A stretch of 64,000 nt of DNA, from positions 124,001 through 188,000 of the forward strand of contig NZ_JNUP01000003.1 of assembly GCF_000758165.1 (NCBI RefSeq), given 5' to 3'. Positions within the stretch are counted from its first letter, which is position 1. Each line of letters begins with the position of its first letter. The translations under genes were made by a program, and so were the position numbers. The DNA is from Spirochaeta lutea (lineage in GTDB: Bacteria > Spirochaetota > Spirochaetia > DSM-27196 > Salinispiraceae). Positions 2,991-12,474 of the stretch are shown here, piece after piece. The notes below the pieces were generated by a model. That model had not been told where the DNA came from, made no database searches, and was given only the letters and a program-made list of their open reading frames with translations.

Positions 2991-3018
2991 ATTATACGAA
3001 TCCCATTTTAATTGTCAA
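2991..3018 (-). promoter_or_regulatory. Perfect consensus sigma-70 promoter of flaA
   Basis: TTGACA (3013-3018) and TATAAT (2991-2996) on the minus strand are separated by 16 bases. Both hexamers match the consensus exactly. The -35 overlaps the last codons region of the preceding GerMN gene (stop 3008-3010). The predicted transcript start near 2984 gives a leader of about 40 bases containing the flaA Shine-Dalgarno. Confidence 0.85.
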
Positions 3019-3535
3019 CGTTTTTTACAGTTTCTTGATTTTCACCACCCTTCTGAAGGGAAAAGACCGGGGCCCCGGGAACATTTCCGCCAATTAGAAG
3101 GGTAACATCATCAATACCTGGAAAATTGGTCTTAATGTTTTTCATTATTAAATCCTCAATTGTTTCCAGGGGTCTTTTTTTATAATCAGCCAGGATTTGC
3201 ACTGTGTCAATACCGAGTGAAACGGTGACTTGTTTTTTTTGTTCATCGAAGAAGAATGCGTCAATGACTGGGGGTGAGGGAAACAGAGGTTCGGAGAGAA
3301 CACGAACCGGACCCAAAAGCAGTGCATCTAAAAATTGTTCTATCTCTTGGGCCTGGCTTGCCTGACGAGGCAGAAGTTGACTTTCTGGAACGAGGGTATT
3401 TGTAGCAGCATCGGGAAAGATCATACGGTATTCCTGCAGGGTTGGCGGGAAAATCACACCTAGGAGAATGCTTACCAAAAAAAGAAAGCTCAGAATTGCA
3501 AGTATAATTTTTTGCGGTAATGAAAGGGGGATCAA
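3008..3535 (-). CDS. GerMN-domain membrane-anchored protein
   Basis: 175 residues. One hydrophobic segment at about residues 8-30 (signal anchor) is followed by a GerMN-type domain: a QEIEQFLDALLLGP helix, then the VSLGIDTVQILADY region and a VTLLIGG strand. The domain occurs in GerM of spore formers and in many non-sporulating bacteria as an envelope protein; its molecular role is poorly known. The start is TTG at 3535, chosen because AGGAG lies six bases upstream. It follows the amidase gene after nine bases, as in other bacteria where GerM-like proteins sit beside Amidase_3 enzymes, so a role in cell-wall turnover is a reasonable inference. A second GerMN protein is encoded at 58688-59557. 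Confidence 0.75.
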   Translation of the reverse strand: MIPLSLPQKIILAILSFLFLVSILLGVIFPPTLQEYRMIFPDAATNTLVPESQLLPRQASQAQEIEQFLDALLLGPVRVLSEPLFPSPPVIDAFFFDEQKKQVTVSLGIDTVQILADYKKRPLETIEDLIMKNIKTNFPGIDDVTLLIGGNVPGAPVFSLQKGGENQETVKNVDN

Positions 3536-3544
3536 ATCACACTC

Positions 3545-4573
3545 CTAATACACCTCCTCAAAGTTGGCTATGAAAGAGGTGACCCCAGTATAGATGCCCT
3601 TAGAAATCTTTTGCAAGTAGTCTGGTTTCATGAGCAGAGCAAATTCGTCTCTATTCGTAACAAACCCGATTTCAATGAGCACCGACGGCATCCGGGCATT
3701 TCGCACCACATACCATTCCTCCTGCATCAATCCTCGATTATTGCTCAGCGTCCCGAGGGTTCCATCTAAACCAGTTAGAATCGATTGAGCCAATAAAATG
3801 CTCTCTACGGTATATTCCTCTTCGAGCAGGGTATTGAGAATGGGAATGACGCTCTTGTCGTATTGGGAATTGGAGTCTTCAGAAATCAGTTCACGACGGT
3901 ATTCGGGAGGGAGATACCACACCTCGTACCCTCGAGCAGCGGAGTTTAGAGATGCGTTTGCATGGATGGAAATATATAAGATATCTTCATTCGGACCTCG
4001 ATGGATGGTGTTTGCCATGTCGGTTCGCTCCTCGAGGGTAAGATATGTATCGTCGCTCCGGCTAAGGACCACCTGTTTTTCCGGATACTGGTTCTGGAGC
4101 AATGCAACGACTTGTTTGGCAACCTCCAGAACTATATCTTTCTCCCGCAGCTCCTGTACTTCATCGTTTATGGTATGCCGCCCGATGGTCCCGGGATCTT
4201 TGCCCCCATGGCCGGGATCTATAAAAATGGTTGAGATCCTTCTTCCCGGACTTTGAATACCCGGGTTCAGCAGATCAAGAACTCGTTGACGGGCTTCTTG
4301 ATTGATCATAATCTCGCCACGATTGCTTTGTGTTATACCTGGTAACGAGATCGGAAGTTGATGGTTGAGAATCCCCATACTTCCGCCGGGATGAATGGTT
4401 AAGGATCTTCCCTGATGCGCAAGGGTGAGTTGATTAGTATAGGCATCCCAATAGTAGGTAAGGTCCAGAGTTTCCCGGAGTGATAAGATGTTGGTATCCT
4501 GAGCACTCAACGGTGCTAAACAGACCAGCGTAAGGATCGCCAGCAGCCAGAATGTTTTAGGTATATGCTTCAC
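3545..4573 (-). CDS. N-acetylmuramoyl-L-alanine amidase (Amidase_3 family)
   Basis: Zinc-dependent hydrolase cutting the bond between N-acetylmuramic acid and L-alanine in peptidoglycan. 342 residues with a signal peptide (cleavage after LSAQ, about residue 25). An N-terminal module of about 80 residues is of unclear type, and the catalytic domain starts at about residue 113. Zinc ligands fit His122 (DPGHGGKDPG), Glu144 (ELREKD) and His204 (ISIHANAS); the catalytic Glu is Glu301 (LIEIGF). All are present, so it should be active in the periplasm. Its start overlaps the end of the ATP-grasp gene by 17 bases and it precedes a GerMN gene. An amiC-type label would be a guess, so no symbol is given. 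Confidence 0.9.
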   Translation of the reverse strand: MKHIPKTFWLLAILTLVCLAPLSAQDTNILSLRETLDLTYYWDAYTNQLTLAHQGRSLTIHPGGSMGILNHQLPISLPGITQSNRGEIMINQEARQRVLDLLNPGIQSPGRRISTIFIDPGHGGKDPGTIGRHTINDEVQELREKDIVLEVAKQVVALLQNQYPEKQVVLSRSDDTYLTLEERTDMANTIHRGPNEDILYISIHANASLNSAARGYEVWYLPPEYRRELISEDSNSQYDKSVIPILNTLLEEEYTVESILLAQSILTGLDGTLGTLSNNRGLMQEEWYVVRNARMPSVLIEIGFVTNRDEFALLMKPDYLQKISKGIYTGVTSFIANFEEVY

Positions 4574-6092
4574 AATATCGCTCTTCCCATCGGTTTAAAA
4601 GTTCCTGTTCGCGGCTATCTCTTCCTATATCGGTAACTATCAACGCCGCCTGGAGTCCATACCGCCTAAGAACCAAGGATGTAAGACGATCAAGTGCTCC
4701 TCCGTACCGGTGAAGCATGGCTTGAGCCTCCTCCAATGTTCGACCGTCCCAGGATACCTCAGATGGATCATGATTGCCATGAAGATTCTCCGGATACGCG
4801 GGTGGAACAGTCTCCAAGGCTGGATTGTCAATGAGATCCCTGCTAACGGGATTATCGGGGTTTAACCGAAGTAGTACCGCTGCCACAGCATTTCGAGCCA
4901 CGGCTTCCGCCTCTAACGGGGTGGCTGAAAAGGCGATAATATTACCGGCCTTTTCTACATTATTCTGAGGAAAGCGGACGAAGTCCCCCTGGGACACCCG
5001 TGGGAACCAGTATTTTACCCCGGGGAATTGGGAGAAATCCGGGATGAATAATTCTTGAATGGTACCTGGAAAACTTATGACTGCCCGTTCTGCCGAGGCC
5101 CCGGAACCACCGTGGTATCCTTCGAGCTCCCAGGGAGTTACCCTCAGTGGTTGGGTGCCAAGACTTATCTGAAGAGCAATTCGGGTTATTGGAATGCCGG
5201 TAGCACCGGGAAGGGTCCAACCTGACATATAGCCCCCGGATAGGCGCGCGGCGATTTCACCAATAACTGGTCCTCGGTCAGTAAAGAAGACATCACCCTT
5301 GGCTGCGCCGTTTTTAATCCCCAGGGCTGCAACCCCACGATGAAATATCTCTAACATATGATGTTCTTGGTCGGCATTGAGGTCGGAAGGAATGGTGTGC
5401 CCGACCTCAATAGAATATGGGGGAAAACAAATATGCCTTCTGGCGATAACAGCGGTAATACATTCTCCCTGGTGGTACAGTGCATCAATACTGTATTCGG
5501 CGCCCTGGATATGATCTTCGATGATGGCAGTTTGGGATCGTGAGTAGCGTTGCGCTTCTTGAATGGCGGGGCCTAAATCGTTGAGGGATGAAACGGTAAT
5601 AACCCCCCGGGCTCCCATGTTGTCCACAGGCTTGACCACCAGAGGAAGGGGCATGCCGGCTGCATCCAAGGCCTTATGGACACTACCAGTCGAGGTATCC
5701 AAGCCCGCTAGGATGAACCGTGGGCTGGGTACCCCGCTCTCTCTGAAAATTTGGCGCATCACAGCCTTGTTACTGGCCGCATGGGCGACCTCCGGGGGTA
5801 TCCCTGGCAACCCAAAGTGTTGGGCGATACGGGCGACGCTGTAGGAGAAATCCGTACCGGCCGTGAATACTCCGTATAGACGTGGAACTAAGCCCTCCGA
5901 TTCAATAGCGGTAATGATAGCATCAAAATCCTTTAGATCGATAGGAAAAAACACATCTGCTTCGGTTCTCATGGGTGCATCAGGATTTCCATCACATACG
6001 ATGGTGGAGAAACCGAGAGAGGCAGCTTCACGGATAGCTGGCCCCTGCATGGTGCCCGCCCCAAGGATGAGAAGGTATTTCGCCTGAATCAT
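4557..6092 (-). CDS. ATP-grasp enzyme, carbamoyl-phosphate-synthase-like
   Basis: 511 residues from the ATG at 6092, which overlaps the upstream stop as ATGA and has AAAGGAA upstream. An N-terminal nucleotide-binding-like pre-ATP-grasp domain (LLILGAGTMQGPAI) leads into an ATP-grasp fold with LVVKPVDNMGARGV (ATP lysine and glycine loop) and the metal-binding stretch GEIAARLSGG. A C-terminal region of about 120 residues is unusual. ATP-grasp enzymes form an acyl phosphate and ligate a carboxylate to an amine or similar nucleophile. Position inside a nucleotide-sugar operon suggests it attaches an amino acid or other acid to a sugar, but the substrate is unknown. An alternative is a D-Ala-D-Ala-ligase-like wall enzyme, given the amidase next door. 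Confidence 0.75.
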   Translation of the reverse strand: MIQAKYLLILGAGTMQGPAIREAASLGFSTIVCDGNPDAPMRTEADVFFPIDLKDFDAIITAIESEGLVPRLYGVFTAGTDFSYSVARIAQHFGLPGIPPEVAHAASNKAVMRQIFRESGVPSPRFILAGLDTSTGSVHKALDAAGMPLPLVVKPVDNMGARGVITVSSLNDLGPAIQEAQRYSRSQTAIIEDHIQGAEYSIDALYHQGECITAVIARRHICFPPYSIEVGHTIPSDLNADQEHHMLEIFHRGVAALGIKNGAAKGDVFFTDRGPVIGEIAARLSGGYMSGWTLPGATGIPITRIALQISLGTQPLRVTPWELEGYHGGSGASAERAVISFPGTIQELFIPDFSQFPGVKYWFPRVSQGDFVRFPQNNVEKAGNIIAFSATPLEAEAVARNAVAAVLLRLNPDNPVSRDLIDNPALETVPPAYPENLHGNHDPSEVSWDGRTLEEAQAMLHRYGGALDRLTSLVLRRYGLQAALIVTDIGRDSREQELLNRWEERYCEAYT

Positions 6093-7873
6093 GAGCGGGG
6101 TTCCTTTACTGCGTAGATTTCCATGGTGTCGCCAAGGTTTCGAAGAGAATTCCATATCCTTCCGAGGGACCGGAACATGAGGGTATTGACCCATGGTGGG
6201 AAGCGTTCTGGATGGTAACTGGCAGGAATGATCGTTTTGACGGTAAACCCGGATCGTTCAAGAAGAACCTTAGCTTGTTTGGGATCCCAGACGGTTACAT
6301 GATCCATGGGACTTTCGTCGAGAAATGCTGCCATGTTTTTCCGGCCTGAGATTCCGCGCCAGGAGGGGGTTGCGAGGGCAAGCACTCCCCCGGGCAGGAG
6401 AAGATCATAGATGGTATTCAGACTATCTTTGAGATCCTGTAGATGTTCAATTACATACCAAAGGCTCACAACGTGGAAACCCTGAGGGTTTAGCTCTGGG
6501 GAAAGAGAATTGATATCGCCGCATTGAGCGGGTATTCCCAGGGTATTGGTAACATATTCAACTGCCTCGGATGAGACATCCAGGCCCATAGGCAGGAACT
6601 GCTGTTCCTTTGCGGCCTGAAGAAACGGTCCGTAGGCACAGCCGATATCTAGAAGTGTCGGTGAGGTTGGGGCCCCGGTTTTTGATAGAAGTTTTTGGAT
6701 TTGGTTCAGGCGCCGCGAGCCCTGTGCTTTTATGGTTTCAAAATCATCGAGATAGGTACGACCGTATTGCTGTTTATATTCTTCCATGAAATACGATTCA
6801 TCGTATTGGGTAACCATGGGCTCGGCCAGTACCTGGTAGAGGGTGTGACAGGTCTGACATTGGATGTAGGTGCGTTTCGCGCTACGGTGCACGATGGAGG
6901 TACTCACGGAGCCACAGCCAGGACACCGGGGATCTGCATGGCTGAGCATGTAGATAAGGGCGGAAATGGATTCGCGGGGAAGTTGTGTACCCTCAGTATG
7001 TAGTAACTCGTGAAATCGTTGGACGCTCTGGGCTGCATCTTCCAAAAATTGAGGGGTATGCAATCTTCTGATCTCTTGCGGTGAGGGAATACTAGGAAGG
7101 CCGAGGGAGGCTGAGAGTTTTTGATGGTACCGGCTAGGATGATCTAACAGCACAGGTGTGCCGGCAGATAAGGCTTCAAAACAGAGAAGTCCGAAACTGG
7201 TGATAACAAGGTCGAAGTTTTGAAGTTGGGTTTCAAGATGCGGCACGTGATGAATGATCTGCCAACCTGAATGGGTGCTCTGGATGAGCAACCGTTCCTT
7301 ATGGCTGAGAGAGAGGCCGGGGATATACACAATCTTTGCCCGGGGGAATAGGCGTTGCAGTACGCCGGAATTAGCCAAGGCAGGACCTAGTTTCCGAGGA
7401 TCCTCAGCACCGAATGACACAAGGACGGACTGAACAGGTATTCGATTCCGGGGATTGTATGGGGGCAAATCAAGGAATGCAAGGCTCTGCCAATTAGCAG
7501 GTCCGGTTTTATCGGGAATCCTTGGCAACATGTCCACCAGGAATGTGCAGAGGTCGCGGCCAGGCGCTCCGCAATCAACGCCCAGGACCGTACCCAAACT
7601 CGAAAGCGTAATAACTTCTTGGGTGGTTGGCCAGGGTTTATCCAGAACGACGAGATCTGCTTTTGAGGGAAGGCTTTCAATACACCGGCTTGCGAGATCG
7701 GGATACAACCCGAGTCCGGGATGCTCGGGAGGTAAGACTATCCGTGTATCCGCATCGGGAAAGGTGGATTGGAGCATCTCCATGGTTTTTAAGGAACGTA
7801 ACACATGGCCTGCCCCAAAACCGGTATTGGTTTCGGGAACAAATACAATGGTTGATGTATTAACGTTGTTCAT
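6089..7873 (-). CDS. Fusion: PseG/SpsG-like glycosyltransferase-fold domain plus SAM methyltransferase
   Basis: 594 residues in two halves. Residues 1-290 resemble PseG/SpsG, the UDP-sugar hydrolase of the pseudaminic acid pathway: TGFGAGHVLRS near the N-terminus for the GHVxR motif, VLVSFGAEDPRKLG in the middle, and the end of the GT-B-like fold around LVITSFGLLCFEALSAGTP. Residues about 310-345 carry a Cys4 motif (CPGCG...CQTC), and from about 400 there is a class I methyltransferase with the SAM loop LLDIGCAYGPFL and a WYVIEHLQDL motif. Start ATG at 7873 overlaps the upstream stop by four bases. Activity of the hydrolase half is inferred only. The fused Cys4-methyltransferase resembles C-methyltransferase-like proteins of sugar clusters. 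Confidence 0.75.
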   Translation of the reverse strand: MNNVNTSTIVFVPETNTGFGAGHVLRSLKTMEMLQSTFPDADTRIVLPPEHPGLGLYPDLASRCIESLPSKADLVVLDKPWPTTQEVITLSSLGTVLGVDCGAPGRDLCTFLVDMLPRIPDKTGPANWQSLAFLDLPPYNPRNRIPVQSVLVSFGAEDPRKLGPALANSGVLQRLFPRAKIVYIPGLSLSHKERLLIQSTHSGWQIIHHVPHLETQLQNFDLVITSFGLLCFEALSAGTPVLLDHPSRYHQKLSASLGLPSIPSPQEIRRLHTPQFLEDAAQSVQRFHELLHTEGTQLPRESISALIYMLSHADPRCPGCGSVSTSIVHRSAKRTYIQCQTCHTLYQVLAEPMVTQYDESYFMEEYKQQYGRTYLDDFETIKAQGSRRLNQIQKLLSKTGAPTSPTLLDIGCAYGPFLQAAKEQQFLPMGLDVSSEAVEYVTNTLGIPAQCGDINSLSPELNPQGFHVVSLWYVIEHLQDLKDSLNTIYDLLLPGGVLALATPSWRGISGRKNMAAFLDESPMDHVTVWDPKQAKVLLERSGFTVKTIIPASYHPERFPPWVNTLMFRSLGRIWNSLRNLGDTMEIYAVKEPRS

Positions 7874-8640
7874 AACACCTCGGATTGTTGGTAGAGTCTC
7901 TGAAAAGCTGAAATGATTTCCCGGCTTGATGGGAGGATGTGGGCGCCCCCCAGGTTCATAGTGTCATTCAGGGACTCCCGGGTTGGAGGAAGGAGTGATT
8001 GATATATCCGCTCGATACGTTGATAGTCTTCCTGGTAATCTACCGTGATGCGCACATCGGGATACCGCGCCCAATCCGGCGGAGAGAGTCGAAGTAGAGA
8101 ATAGTCCTCAGGATGGTTATAGATGTATGGGGTTACATGCTCATAATCATAGGGGGTAAGGGTGTGTTCAGGAAGATTTAGGAGAGCCTGGGCGGTAATA
8201 AACTCTACTCCCCCGCCGTAGGGCAGTGCATTGAAGACAGTATAATCCATCCCTCGGCGGACACCTGAGAGGATTTGCTCGGGAATAAGTTCATGGATTA
8301 CGAAGGGGTTGTCAGCGGTGGCTCGTATGAGAAAATCAAAATGATAATCTCGAGCCGCTTTTTGAAATCGGGAAAGTACGTTTATTGAATCACCCTCCAA
8401 TACTGCAAAATCCTGGGCCTCTGCGATCGGCTGAATGGTGGTGCTGCTTGCTGCATCGGTAAGCACGACCATGGTGAATTCGAATCCGGATTTGAGGTTA
8501 GGATCTACCGATATGGTTTTTAGCCTCTGTAATGCAGAACCGAGGATGGTTGTTGATCCCAGAGGCAGGGTAACCTTGCCCGGGAGCCGCACCGAATTGC
8601 AGCGGGCTTGAATGCAGATCCCTATGTGCTTAGAAGCCAT
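7870..8640 (-). CDS. SpsF-type cytidylyltransferase
   Basis: 256 residues. It belongs to the SpsF/NeuA-like nucleotidyltransferase group, which activates sugars such as nonulosonic acids with CMP. The signature QARCNSVRLPGK at about residues 10-21 matches the family QARxxSxRLPGK motif, and FLIRATADNPF matches the segment that carries the metal-binding Asp. RITVDYQEDY near the C-terminus matches the usual conserved Asp. The ATG at 8640 is preferred to the one at 8667 because AGAGGAGG lies just upstream. It overlaps the upstream gene by 11 bases and the downstream gene by four, so it is in the same operon. The exact sugar cannot be read from sequence. Confidence 0.85.
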   Translation of the reverse strand: MASKHIGICIQARCNSVRLPGKVTLPLGSTTILGSALQRLKTISVDPNLKSGFEFTMVVLTDAASSTTIQPIAEAQDFAVLEGDSINVLSRFQKAARDYHFDFLIRATADNPFVIHELIPEQILSGVRRGMDYTVFNALPYGGGVEFITAQALLNLPEHTLTPYDYEHVTPYIYNHPEDYSLLRLSPPDWARYPDVRITVDYQEDYQRIERIYQSLLPPTRESLNDTMNLGGAHILPSSREIISAFQRLYQQSEVL

Positions 8641-9607
8641 TAAACCCCTCCTCTTCCCAGAGTTCAACGAGACGGCGTGCTTCTCCGGTAAATCGAAAAG
8701 AATGGTGTTTTACCCACGCACGAGCCTTTTGAAACTGTTTTACGGCTTGAATTATACCTGACCCGCTGTTTCGGTAAAATTCCCAGAAGGCATGCAATGG
8801 TACGTGGCCATGGTCTTTATCAAATTCTACGGCGATATTACGAAGGTAAAACGTAAGGTAATCATCATCGGGGGTGGTGTCTTCTGGCTGAAAATCCTCC
8901 TCTGCCTGAACACGGAAACCCTGATGAAGAGATATGGCATTTCCCCAAAGAAAACTCCGCAATCCGAAGTCCATTTTTTGCCAGTACGGGTTAGGTATAT
9001 CTAAGGCAAACCCCCCCAGGGCTTGAAATTCTTTTTTATTATAAATGCCAAGATAATCAAAGGGATAGAGAGAGCAGGTGTTTTCACCGCTGGGGGTAAG
9101 GTACACTGGTTTCATGTGGTTGTTGAAGCTTGCTGGGATGCAGATGGTCGGCAAAACCTCGCCTCGGGTATTTCGGATAACAGGAGCGGTACAGACCGCC
9201 CGACTTTCCCAGATCTCCTGGATGAATCTGCTAGACATTGGCAGTGGCTGGATATAGCTCCACAACACCATGGCATGGGTTGATAGAGACTCACGCATGG
9301 CTATATTGATCTGCTCACCGATGGACTTGGGCTGGTCCTGAAAAACCAGAAATCGTAATCCGGGGTAGCGCTGGGAGAGCTCTTCTAAATCGTATGAGGG
9401 CCGGCAGGATTCGATGGAGATGATTTCCGTCCAACCATATTTCTGTAATCGCTCGAAGGTATCGTTCCGGAGGTACCGGGCTCCCCGATTTAAGAGAATC
9501 AAGCCGAGATTCTTCTGGGAATGGGAGGTGTCAACTGTTGGCTTTCGGCCCAGTACGGTGTAGGGAGTAATTCCTGGATTATTAGAAATTGTATGTGTAG
9601 TACTCAT
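8630..9607 (-). CDS. Glycosyltransferase-like protein (GT-A-like), uncertain
   Basis: 325 residues from ATG 9607 (AGGGA upstream). The pattern of strands and helices (LGLILLNRGARYLRNDTFERL, EIISIESC, PGLRFLVF, followed by SIGEQINIAMRES) looks like the N-terminal half of a family 2 glycosyltransferase, with GEQIN in the place of the usual substrate-handling helix. No clear DxD motif is visible where one would expect it (WSYIQPL), so catalytic activity is doubtful. The C-terminal third has a long helical stretch. It overlaps the neighbouring genes at both ends (26 and 11 bases), arguing for tight co-expression with the radical SAM and cytidylyltransferase genes. It could be a structural or substrate-binding partner rather than an enzyme. 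Confidence 0.6.
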   Translation of the reverse strand: MSTTHTISNNPGITPYTVLGRKPTVDTSHSQKNLGLILLNRGARYLRNDTFERLQKYGWTEIISIESCRPSYDLEELSQRYPGLRFLVFQDQPKSIGEQINIAMRESLSTHAMVLWSYIQPLPMSSRFIQEIWESRAVCTAPVIRNTRGEVLPTICIPASFNNHMKPVYLTPSGENTCSLYPFDYLGIYNKKEFQALGGFALDIPNPYWQKMDFGLRSFLWGNAISLHQGFRVQAEEDFQPEDTTPDDDYLTFYLRNIAVEFDKDHGHVPLHAFWEFYRNSGSGIIQAVKQFQKARAWVKHHSFRFTGEARRLVELWEEEGFNGF

Positions 9608-11174
9608 CACAATCCCTGCATACATCCGGATAATTCTGATCACAATGCTGATGGTATGGGTCGGTTATACGATCCCAGATGTCTTTGGGTTCCTCCTTAA
9701 AAATGTTGCCCATGGGTTTATGGTTCCCCATGCTCTGTTCACAGAGGGGAACGCTTCCGTCAAGCAACACCGTAAAATCACGCATCAAATGCCAACAGGG
9801 AAGACGCTTCAAGGGGCGAAGATCCACTGCCTTTCGATCGGGTAAAAGTCCGCCTTGATTCGCATACTTTTGAATTATGATATTCTCAGTCTTTCCCTTC
9901 CAGTACTGGTAGAAGGCGAGAAGCTGTTCCTCCCGATCCTTGAGCCGTACGGCTTGGACATAGACATCGGCAGGACTGAGTGCTAGCATGGTTTGGGTGA
10001 AACTCATGGCTTCGTGAAATCCCGTACCCCGGAGGGTTTGGTACTCTTCCTCAGAGACCGCATCCAAGCTGATGATCCACTGGGTTTTCTTAAGGGTTGG
10101 GACTAGACGTTTTATTTCCTCAGGATTCCACCCGATTCCTGAGGTCACGATGAGGAGCCTCTGGGGCAGGTGTCGGTCAATATAAGAAATAATGCGGTAA
10201 ATATCTGGATGGGTTGAAGGCTCGCCTAGAGGAGAGAGGGAAATAACTGATTCTGGCGACCATTCTGCAAGACGCTGAAACAGCTCAAGTGCCTTGTCGA
10301 GGGGCATGTAGTTTGTATCATTAAGAAGCCCGGGATTCATACGGGGATAGGGACAGTATGAACATTGTTGGGGACATTGGGCAGAAATCTGAATTGAAAA
10401 ATACGCAGGAAGGGTTCGGTAGTCTTTTTGCCTGCTCCGTATTTGGTTTATGAATTCACGGGGGTCTTCTTTCAACACCTCGGGGGTAAGGCCAGCAGAA
10501 AGCTTTTTGCACAACAGGTAGTTTCTTCTGGTAGAGGTGTTTAGCTCCAAGCGGTAGGGTCTGAAATCAAAATCCGATAACAGGGTCTCGATCTGATAGG
10601 CATTTATATCCTGTTGTATTAACCCAAATAACAAGGTTCGATCAATGGTGCTGGGGTGTTTGTAGGAAAGGGAAAGTAGGGACGGAATAGTATCGGGGTT
10701 TAACAACTCCGGCGCTGTACCCGGGGGGTAACCGTCCGCAAAGGTAAAATCCGCCCGATATGTACTGTGGAGTTCCTGTAAATCCTTGGTTACCTGGATC
10801 TGCAAAAACGGAGAATCACCCCAAAAAACGGAAACAGTTCCTGTAGGTTTAGTAGTTGCTACAACGGTAAGGGCCTCGTGCCAGGAGTCGGAGGATAATT
10901 CGGTGATAGTGTACGGTACCGGACACCAGGACCAATCCAAATCAGCAGCGGCTGGAGGAGGCTTGATGGTCTGACTGCGCTGCTGCTCTGTTTCTGGGGT
11001 TGGTACAAAAAGCAGGCTTATGGTAGAGACATGGGAGACTGAAGCCAAGGACTCTATGGCTCGTTTGAGATAGTCCTTTGCTGACCCATGATGGAGTTCA
11101 AGTTCCCAATACGGCAGGATTGCAGGTAGTAAAATACAAAGGTGGTTCTCCATGGTCGTTCTATCGGTATCCAT
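9582..11174 (-). CDS. Radical SAM/SPASM protein of spiro-SPASM type
   Basis: 530 residues, two parts. Residues 1-200 look like a nucleotidyltransferase-type fold: FWGDSPFLQIQVTKDL with Asp120-Ser-Pro, then FTFADGYPPGTAPELL, comparable to DxP and YPxG elements in IspD/MobA-like enzymes. Residues 255 onward are a radical SAM domain with the cluster motif Cys267-x3-Cys271-x2-Cys274 and the SLSPLGEPSTHPDI segment. A C-terminal SPASM-like region (CWHLMRDFTVLLDG, LCEQ, then CRDCDEYY) should bind one or two more Fe-S clusters. The layout and host match what I recall as the spirochaete-specific spiro-SPASM family; the substrate is unknown. Start ATG 11174 has AGGAG upstream. It is the first gene of the minus-strand sugar operon, divergent from xseA. 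Confidence 0.85.
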   Translation of the reverse strand: MDTDRTTMENHLCILLPAILPYWELELHHGSAKDYLKRAIESLASVSHVSTISLLFVPTPETEQQRSQTIKPPPAAADLDWSWCPVPYTITELSSDSWHEALTVVATTKPTGTVSVFWGDSPFLQIQVTKDLQELHSTYRADFTFADGYPPGTAPELLNPDTIPSLLSLSYKHPSTIDRTLLFGLIQQDINAYQIETLLSDFDFRPYRLELNTSTRRNYLLCKKLSAGLTPEVLKEDPREFINQIRSRQKDYRTLPAYFSIQISAQCPQQCSYCPYPRMNPGLLNDTNYMPLDKALELFQRLAEWSPESVISLSPLGEPSTHPDIYRIISYIDRHLPQRLLIVTSGIGWNPEEIKRLVPTLKKTQWIISLDAVSEEEYQTLRGTGFHEAMSFTQTMLALSPADVYVQAVRLKDREEQLLAFYQYWKGKTENIIIQKYANQGGLLPDRKAVDLRPLKRLPCWHLMRDFTVLLDGSVPLCEQSMGNHKPMGNIFKEEPKDIWDRITDPYHQHCDQNYPDVCRDCDEYYTYNF

Positions 11175-11232: not shown

Positions 11233-12474
11233 ATGAACCTAATGGTGAACGAATTTAATCCCGTCTCTGTATCCCAACTCACCTACCATATCAAGGAGAT
11301 ACTGGAACATTCCTTTTCCACCCTGGTGATCGAGGGAGAAATCAGCAATTTCCGGCCCGCTGCGTCCGGGCATTGGTATTTTTCCCTAAAGGACGAGCAT
11401 GCAGTAATTCAGGCTGTGATGTTCCGGGGAAAGAACTCTCAGATTGATTTTATCCCCAAAGACGGTATGCAGGTACTGGTCACCGGAACCCTCAGTGTGT
11501 ATGAGAAGCGGGGCAACTATCAGATTATTTGCACTACCATGAAACAGGCCGGGCTTGGCCAGATCCTCAGGGCGCTGGAGGAGCGCAAGCAACGGCTTTC
11601 TGCAGAAGGCTTGTTTGACCCAGAAAAGAAACGGGGTATTCCCCTCTTCCCAAAACGTATTGTAGCGATTACCAGCCCTACCGGGGCTGCTATCCGGGAT
11701 ATTCTGAATGTGTTGAAACGGAGAAACCTAGGAGCCTCGGTTACGATTCTCCCGGCTGCAGTGCAGGGAAATGAGGCTGCTCCCCAGCTCATCAAGATGT
11801 TACAACTTGCCAATACATTCGCCATGGGGGATGTGATCATCCTCGGCCGGGGCGGCGGCAGCCTGGAGGATTTACTTCCCTTCTCCGATGAGTCTTTGGT
11901 TCGCGCTGTCGCCGAGTCAGAGTTGCCTGTTATCTCTGCAGTGGGTCATGAGATTGATTGGTGCCTCTGTGATTACGCGGCTGATCTCCGGGCGCCGACC
12001 CCCTCCGCTGCGGCTGAGGTTGTAACCGGACACCGCGAGGAGCTGCTGTCACGGGTCCTCTCTGCTGGTCATACGATAGCAGGGGCTATGGTTCAGACGA
12101 AAAAACGGCTTACCCTCGCCCTCCGACCCTTCAAACCAGATTTTATTGAGGAAGCATTCCGGCGAGTCATCCAACCGCGATACCAGCGGCTGGATGATGC
12201 GAAGGAAGAGCTGGTTCAATCCCTGGGTAACCGTATTAAAGATGTACAAAAGCGACTTTCGGTGGCTGTAGCTCAGATTGAAAGCTGTTCTCCCTACGAG
12301 GTTTTGCAGCGGGGGTATAGCATCGTATCGAAGGTGAAAACGAAGGAAATAATTACAAGTGCCGGTCAGGTGGCCCGGGGTGAGGCTGTCCATATTCGCC
12401 TTGCCCAGGGAGCGATTCAGGCTGATGTAACAGAATATGTAGAAACGGCTCAAGGAAAGGAATTACATGAGTAG
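11233..12474 (+). CDS. xseA: Exodeoxyribonuclease VII large subunit
   Basis: 413 residues, normal length for XseA. With XseB it forms the nuclease that degrades single-stranded DNA in both directions and acts in mismatch repair and recombination. The N-terminal OB-fold shows VEGEISNFRPAASGHWYFSLKD-type sequence (VIEGEISNF, SGHWYFSLKD). The catalytic domain shows IVAITSPTGAAIRD, ILGRGGGSLEDLLPF and ISAVGHEIDWCLCDYAADLRAPTPSAAAE. A helical region of about 100 residues follows for XseB binding. There is no Shine-Dalgarno before either ATG (11233 or 11242). The gene is divergent from the sugar operon and overlaps xseB by eight bases. Confidence 0.95.
   Translation: MNLMVNEFNPVSVSQLTYHIKEILEHSFSTLVIEGEISNFRPAASGHWYFSLKDEHAVIQAVMFRGKNSQIDFIPKDGMQVLVTGTLSVYEKRGNYQIICTTMKQAGLGQILRALEERKQRLSAEGLFDPEKKRGIPLFPKRIVAITSPTGAAIRDILNVLKRRNLGASVTILPAAVQGNEAAPQLIKMLQLANTFAMGDVIILGRGGGSLEDLLPFSDESLVRAVAESELPVISAVGHEIDWCLCDYAADLRAPTPSAAAEVVTGHREELLSRVLSAGHTIAGAMVQTKKRLTLALRPFKPDFIEEAFRRVIQPRYQRLDDAKEELVQSLGNRIKDVQKRLSVAVAQIESCSPYEVLQRGYSIVSKVKTKEIITSAGQVARGEAVHIRLAQGAIQADVTEYVETAQGKELHE

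Follow-up and report, generated by a model that had tools for sequence, protein, structure and literature searches.

We analyzed a 64,000-nucleotide stretch of the Spirochaeta lutea genome (contig NZ_JNUP01000003.1, positions 124,001 to 188,000; hereafter the window, with coordinates counted from its first nucleotide) and found in it a real, ancient, spirochaete-wide and flagellum-linked gene module. Two modules share one operon: the first probably makes a cytidine monophosphate (CMP)-activated nonulosonic acid (NulO) that Maf-type transferases would attach to the flagellin FlaB, and the second would serve the cell wall and the filament sheath. Five minus-strand genes, with successive overlaps of 26, 11, 4 and 4 bases, encode a spiro-SPASM protein (9582 to 11174), which combines an SpsF-like N-terminal domain with radical S-adenosylmethionine (SAM) and SPASM domains; a GT-A-fold glycosyltransferase (GT)-like protein (8630 to 9607); an SpsF-type cytidylyltransferase (7870 to 8640), predicted to be a CMP-NulO synthetase; a fusion of a PseG/SpsG-like uridine diphosphate (UDP)-sugar hydrolase with a class I methyltransferase (PseG-MT; 6089 to 7873); and an ATP-grasp ligase with a LAL_C2 domain (4557 to 6092), predicted to be an amide-forming acyl ligase. 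All but the GT-like gene would belong to the first module. The original prediction had described these five coupled genes, with their overlaps of 4 to 26 bases, and had proposed searching other spirochaetes for the same order. We reproduced the genes from the sequence, and the order radical SAM-GT-SpsF-PseG/MT-ATP-grasp-amidase-small gene-flaA is repeated in several families of the class, with a radical SAM-SpsF-PseG/MT-amidase-flaA order also seen outside it. Because the order recurs so widely, the arrangement is far beyond chance.

Co-inheritance was assessed throughout in the same draw of 198 genomes of the class, using the family cut-off for spiro-SPASM and E-value thresholds of <1e-40 for the NeuB synthase, <1e-48 for PseG-MT and <=1e-75 for ATP-grasp; tallies were compiled by hand from match tables, and Fisher tests, which ignore relatedness, served as a guide only. 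An earlier phylum-wide draw was uninformative about flagella, all of its 149 genomes being FlhA positive. FlhA was present in 166 of the 198 genomes, and spiro-SPASM scored over its cut-off in 127. Maf accompanied it in all 127, NeuB in 123, ATP-grasp in about 122 and PseG-MT in about 121; the four genomes without NeuB at this threshold are 71 to 83% complete. Sixty genomes from seven groups without spiro-SPASM yielded one Maf, four NeuB and neither PseG-MT nor ATP-grasp. The module is present in one genus of family f59 (g133) and absent from another (g102), and within a single genus (f57 g100) it occurs in G315, not in G156 or G208. Spiro-SPASM and PseG-MT genes lie at most 7 kb apart in 62 of 64 genomes, and in 55 of these 64 the ATP-grasp gene is no more than 9 kb away. 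Among well-assembled genomes, spiro-SPASM exceeded the cut-off in 84 of 114 FlhA-positive and in 0 of 25 FlhA-negative ones; conservation of the operon in spirochaetes without flagella, which the original prediction had named as evidence against its proposal, was thus not found. A simple rule tying spiro-SPASM to flagella in general was rejected, since the Borrelia-like genomes (family f6; a working label that rests partly on gene content) and two other flagellated groups, f59 g102 and part of f57, have no spiro-SPASM. NeuB and Maf are missing from these groups too. Co-inheritance of spiro-SPASM, PseG-MT, ATP-grasp, NeuB and Maf, as found in this analysis, supports a flagellin nonulosonic acid pathway.

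SpsF (ATG start at 8640; an alternative TTG lies at 8667) matches PF02348 (CTP_transf_3; E 1e-20) and the PDB entry 6oew, a Leptospira cytidylyltransferase (E 7e-52). The PseG-like match is weak (TIGR03590, 29 bits vs a cut-off of 154), with a GH-x2-R loop that is invariant in ten relatives, and the fused domain matches Methyltransf_23 (3e-19). The ligase assignment draws on an ATP-grasp_4 match (4e-17) and on co-occurrence. Two ATP-grasp relatives outside the class carry a long C-terminal extension resembling an FMN-dependent dehydrogenase (L065:15874-18171 and L068:16979-19210).

From the absence of PseB, PseC and PseI beside the operon, the original prediction had concluded that the pathway is either new or a partial set. 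Genes of these kinds lie elsewhere in the S. lutea genome (G000). A NeuB synthase is encoded on contig C42 (E 3.9e-57, short of the equivalog cut-offs for NeuB and PseI), and on contig C63 (locus L101) a 4,6-dehydratase gene with PseB as its best NCBIfam match adjoins an aminotransferase gene with PseC as its best match, both below the equivalog cut-offs. The genome also holds four Maf-type PF01973 genes, one of them at C21:61364. With all of these found in the same genome, the partial-set reading is answered, and the pathway is dispersed over three or more loci. As to the surroundings of these genes, the single true NeuB gene directly follows an open reading frame (ORF) that reads as a seryl-tRNA synthetase (L074:10056-12602), and the dehydratase-aminotransferase pair has a NusG-like gene immediately in front of it (L101:4895-8176). 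In the T. denticola-like genome (L103), the dehydratase gene is preceded by an ORF whose size and start are similar. Across the class, a genome usually has four PF01973 genes.

From the matches we infer the following sequence of reactions. The PseB-like dehydratase and the PseC-like aminotransferase would yield a UDP-amino-sugar, and the ATP-grasp ligase, replacing the acetyltransferase PseH, would add to the new amine a polyhydroxy-acyl group, which the fused methyltransferase would O-methylate. The PseG-like domain would then take off UDP, NeuB would add phosphoenolpyruvate, SpsF would produce the CMP sugar, and Maf-type transferases would attach it to FlaB. The kind of pathway is known: a dehydratase, an aminotransferase, a PseG/SpsG-type hydrolase, a NeuB-type synthase and an SpsF cytidylyltransferase are shared with the pse, leg and Bacillus subtilis sps pathways, the last of which is proposed to run from SpsM through SpsC-SpsD-SpsG-SpsE-SpsF (PMC7439481). 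Unlike these three, the spirochaete set includes an ATP-grasp ligase, a PseG-methyltransferase fusion and an accessory spiro-SPASM protein, has its genes scattered, and matches PseB, PseC and NeuB only below equivalog cut-offs. A PseH/SpsD acetyltransferase is not encoded in the operon and none was identified, the genome as a whole not having been searched for a GNAT partner. What appears new is this combination of enzymes, together with the repeated loss of the radical SAM cluster described below.

The spiro-SPASM protein clearly belongs to NCBIfam TIGR04321 (458 bits, cut-off 250), a family whose name gives no function and on which no paper turned up in the literature searched. It matches Radical_SAM (6e-11) and SPASM (1.5e-6), and its AlphaFold model has a mean confidence (pLDDT) of 89.7. 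Our analysis uncovered an additional SpsF-like domain in the N-terminal ∼240 residues (amino acids ∼6 to 245; 10440 to 11159), which matches the operon's own SpsF (hhalign E 2.7e-15) as well as 6oew, the latter by profile (E 5.6e-9) and by fold. Iterated profiles mixed spiro-SPASM with SpsF, and non-iterated profiles and hhalign were used instead. An R-x2-S-x-R-x3-K loop present in 15 of 15 SpsF proteins is missing from all 55 spiro-SPASM family members checked, the window's included, which makes catalysis by the SpsF-like domain unlikely. In the sequence and fold of its central and C-terminal parts, the protein resembles BtrN and other SPASM/twitch radical SAM enzymes; unlike these, spiro-SPASM has the extra N-terminal domain and has lost the CxxxCxxC motif in most relatives sampled.

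This loss is a further finding of the present work. The motif is intact in the window's copy (C267, C271 and C274; 10353 to 10376) and, counting that copy, in 50 of 116 relatives; the other 66 have lost it, and 62 of them keep none of the three cysteines. By comparison, all four SPASM cysteines (C460, C478, C519 and C522; 9609 to 9797) are kept in 115 of the 116. Motif losers include the genomes that we take to be Treponema pallidum (G056) and Treponema denticola ATCC 35405 (G311), the latter via its close relatives L004, L005 and L036. When the tree was built with the motif columns left out, the motif state changed at least 21 times, vs 35 to 44 in the first ten label shuffles; many branches of this tree are weakly supported, which makes 21 a rough figure, and an earlier tree of 53 members gave ten changes. 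Since the motif is shared by other radical SAM families, we read these changes as losses. They point to a conserved job of spiro-SPASM that is probably not radical chemistry. In the scheme proposed here, spiro-SPASM would act as an accessory protein in which the SpsF-like domain and the SPASM cluster are essential and the radical SAM site is optional. More specifically, and only tentatively, it could be a pseudo-enzyme obligately partnered with SpsF or with the step of NulO transfer, with a dead SpsF-like domain, an often-inactivated radical SAM barrel and a structural or redox SPASM cluster, whose radical cluster was discarded about 20 times while the pathway was kept. A rival explanation, which we take seriously without counting it as likely, is that copies retaining the cysteines, such as the one in the window, are working radical SAM dehydrogenases or epimerases that act on the sugar or the acyl precursor and thereby generate a lineage-specific glycan variant. 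The nearly all-or-none state of the motif would fit this explanation, as would the closest solved relative by sequence, BtrN, which is an aminocyclitol dehydrogenase. A G-E-P motif is also mostly kept, but as it persists where the CxxxCxxC cysteines are gone, it does not report activity. Moreover, the motif state has changed roughly 20 times while the other module genes were kept, which shows that the module is independent of radical chemistry.

The GT-like gene was placed in the sugar pathway by the original prediction, but its distribution follows the amidase instead. The N-acetylmuramoyl-L-alanine amidase gene (3545 to 4573; Amidase_3, 7e-48) overlaps the ATP-grasp gene by 17 bases and is followed, likewise on the minus strand, by a small conserved gene without a Pfam or NCBIfam match (3008 to 3535), by flaA for the flagellar filament sheath protein (1942 to 2985; PF04620, 4e-83) and by cheA (3 to 1811), an open frame cut by the window edge that bears the name given in the original prediction, no family search having been made. 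Borrelia-like genomes keep the GT-like, amidase, small and flaA genes together (L079 and L080), the f59 g102 genomes keep the first three (L081 and L082), and four flagella-less genomes carry a less closely related GT-like gene right next to an amidase gene (L107 to L110). The GT-like protein itself (ATG start at 9607; an alternative GTG lies at 9643) has no Pfam match and was recognized by Foldseek and by its context in other genomes. Its predicted fold is closest to polypeptide GalNAc-transferases (TM score about 0.5 to 0.6) and like that of GT2-like enzymes, from which it differs by its pairing with the amidase and by the DxD/DxH metal and ED/EN catalytic motifs of GT2/GT27 glycosyltransferases, which look degenerate by eye in the alignment. 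Two other roles were rejected. For a flagellin NulO transferase, Maf-type genes co-occur with the module whereas the GT-like gene stays beside the amidase where the module is missing, as in Borrelia-like genomes and those without flagella; for another SpsF relative, there was no hhalign support. In our reading, the GT-like protein would work with the amidase on the cell wall and is not a step of the sugar pathway, and the second module would comprise the GT-like, amidase, small and flaA genes. Upstream of the operon, an opposite-strand ORF (11233 to 12474, plus strand) adjoins it in several relatives and probably lies outside it.

The amidase also bears on an alternative that we regard as improbable, namely that the operon makes a sugar for a surface or cell-wall polysaccharide and that its flagellar link is one of gene neighborhood only. 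An amidase does follow the sugar genes, its pairing with the GT-like gene holds in genomes without flagella, and NulO are known in Leptospira (PMC3438082). However, the PseG-MT and ATP-grasp genes are gone where the GT-amidase pair persists, Maf is found in every spiro-SPASM genome, and the well-assembled flagella-less genomes have no spiro-SPASM over the cut-off. The original prediction is thus supported in part, as a flagellum-linked NulO operon shorn of the GT-like gene and of the notion that the pathway is partial.

A candidate product is offered by the flagellin of T. denticola. Its glycan is reported (Kurniyati, 2017) to be a pseudaminic acid bearing one acetyl and one 2-methoxy-4,5,6-trihydroxyhexanoyl group. 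The amine that carries this acyl group is the one acetylated by PseH in Campylobacter, and a methyltransferase together with an amide-forming ATP-grasp ligase could make a methoxy-acyl group of this kind. The genome taken as T. denticola contains all module genes searched for and, like that taken as T. pallidum, has SpsF, PseG and the methyltransferase in one protein. The T. pallidum reading agrees with the literature, in which TP0284-0289 have been re-annotated and TPASS_0285 bears the name "SPASM" and TPASS_0289 "methyltransferase." The glycan structure given above calculates to 450.185, vs a reported 450.2 Da for the FlaB glycan of T. denticola, which is essential for filament assembly (PMC9481697). 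This glycan is likewise a spirochaete flagellin modification, and we propose here its link to these genes; the literature searched yielded no genes assigned to it.

FlaA and FlaB had both been named as possible targets of the sugar, and FlaB is the likelier of the two. The neighboring flaA gene is what would favor attachment to FlaA rather than FlaB, which we consider very improbable. Going by its title, a 1998 study by Wyss (cited in PMC13144727) reported treponeme flagellins, not sheath proteins, to be glycosylated, and glycan-like densities have been seen on Leptospira FlaB1 at the core-sheath interface (PMC13144727). In addition, flaA stays in the Borrelia-like genomes that have no module.

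Several points weigh against a flagellin NulO pathway as proposed here. The tie between genes and glycan is drawn from sequence comparison and co-occurrence, and the glycan structure attributed to T. denticola is matched here by mass. As the genomes are related, the co-inheritance counts lack independence. In eleven further genomes Maf is present and spiro-SPASM does not reach the cut-off; most of these are incomplete, but G201 and G212 are 94% and 93% complete, respectively. NeuB occurs in four flagella-less genomes of family f56. Some operon relatives outside the class have PseG without the methyltransferase (e.g., L058), and the acyl-methyl chemistry thus cannot be general. Lastly, absence of the module from Borrelia-like genomes fits only if their flagellin is without this glycan.

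Collectively, these findings indicate that the pathway most likely builds an unusual acid sugar of flagellar filaments, including those of the spirochaetes of syphilis and gum disease. If this is right, most genes for the treponeme flagellin sugar would now be named, also in the reduced genome of the syphilis spirochaete, and the search for the genes behind the essential 450 Da glycan would come down to gene-by-gene deletion. The repeated loss of the radical SAM cluster, with the auxiliary cluster kept, offers a natural series on what SPASM clusters do alone.

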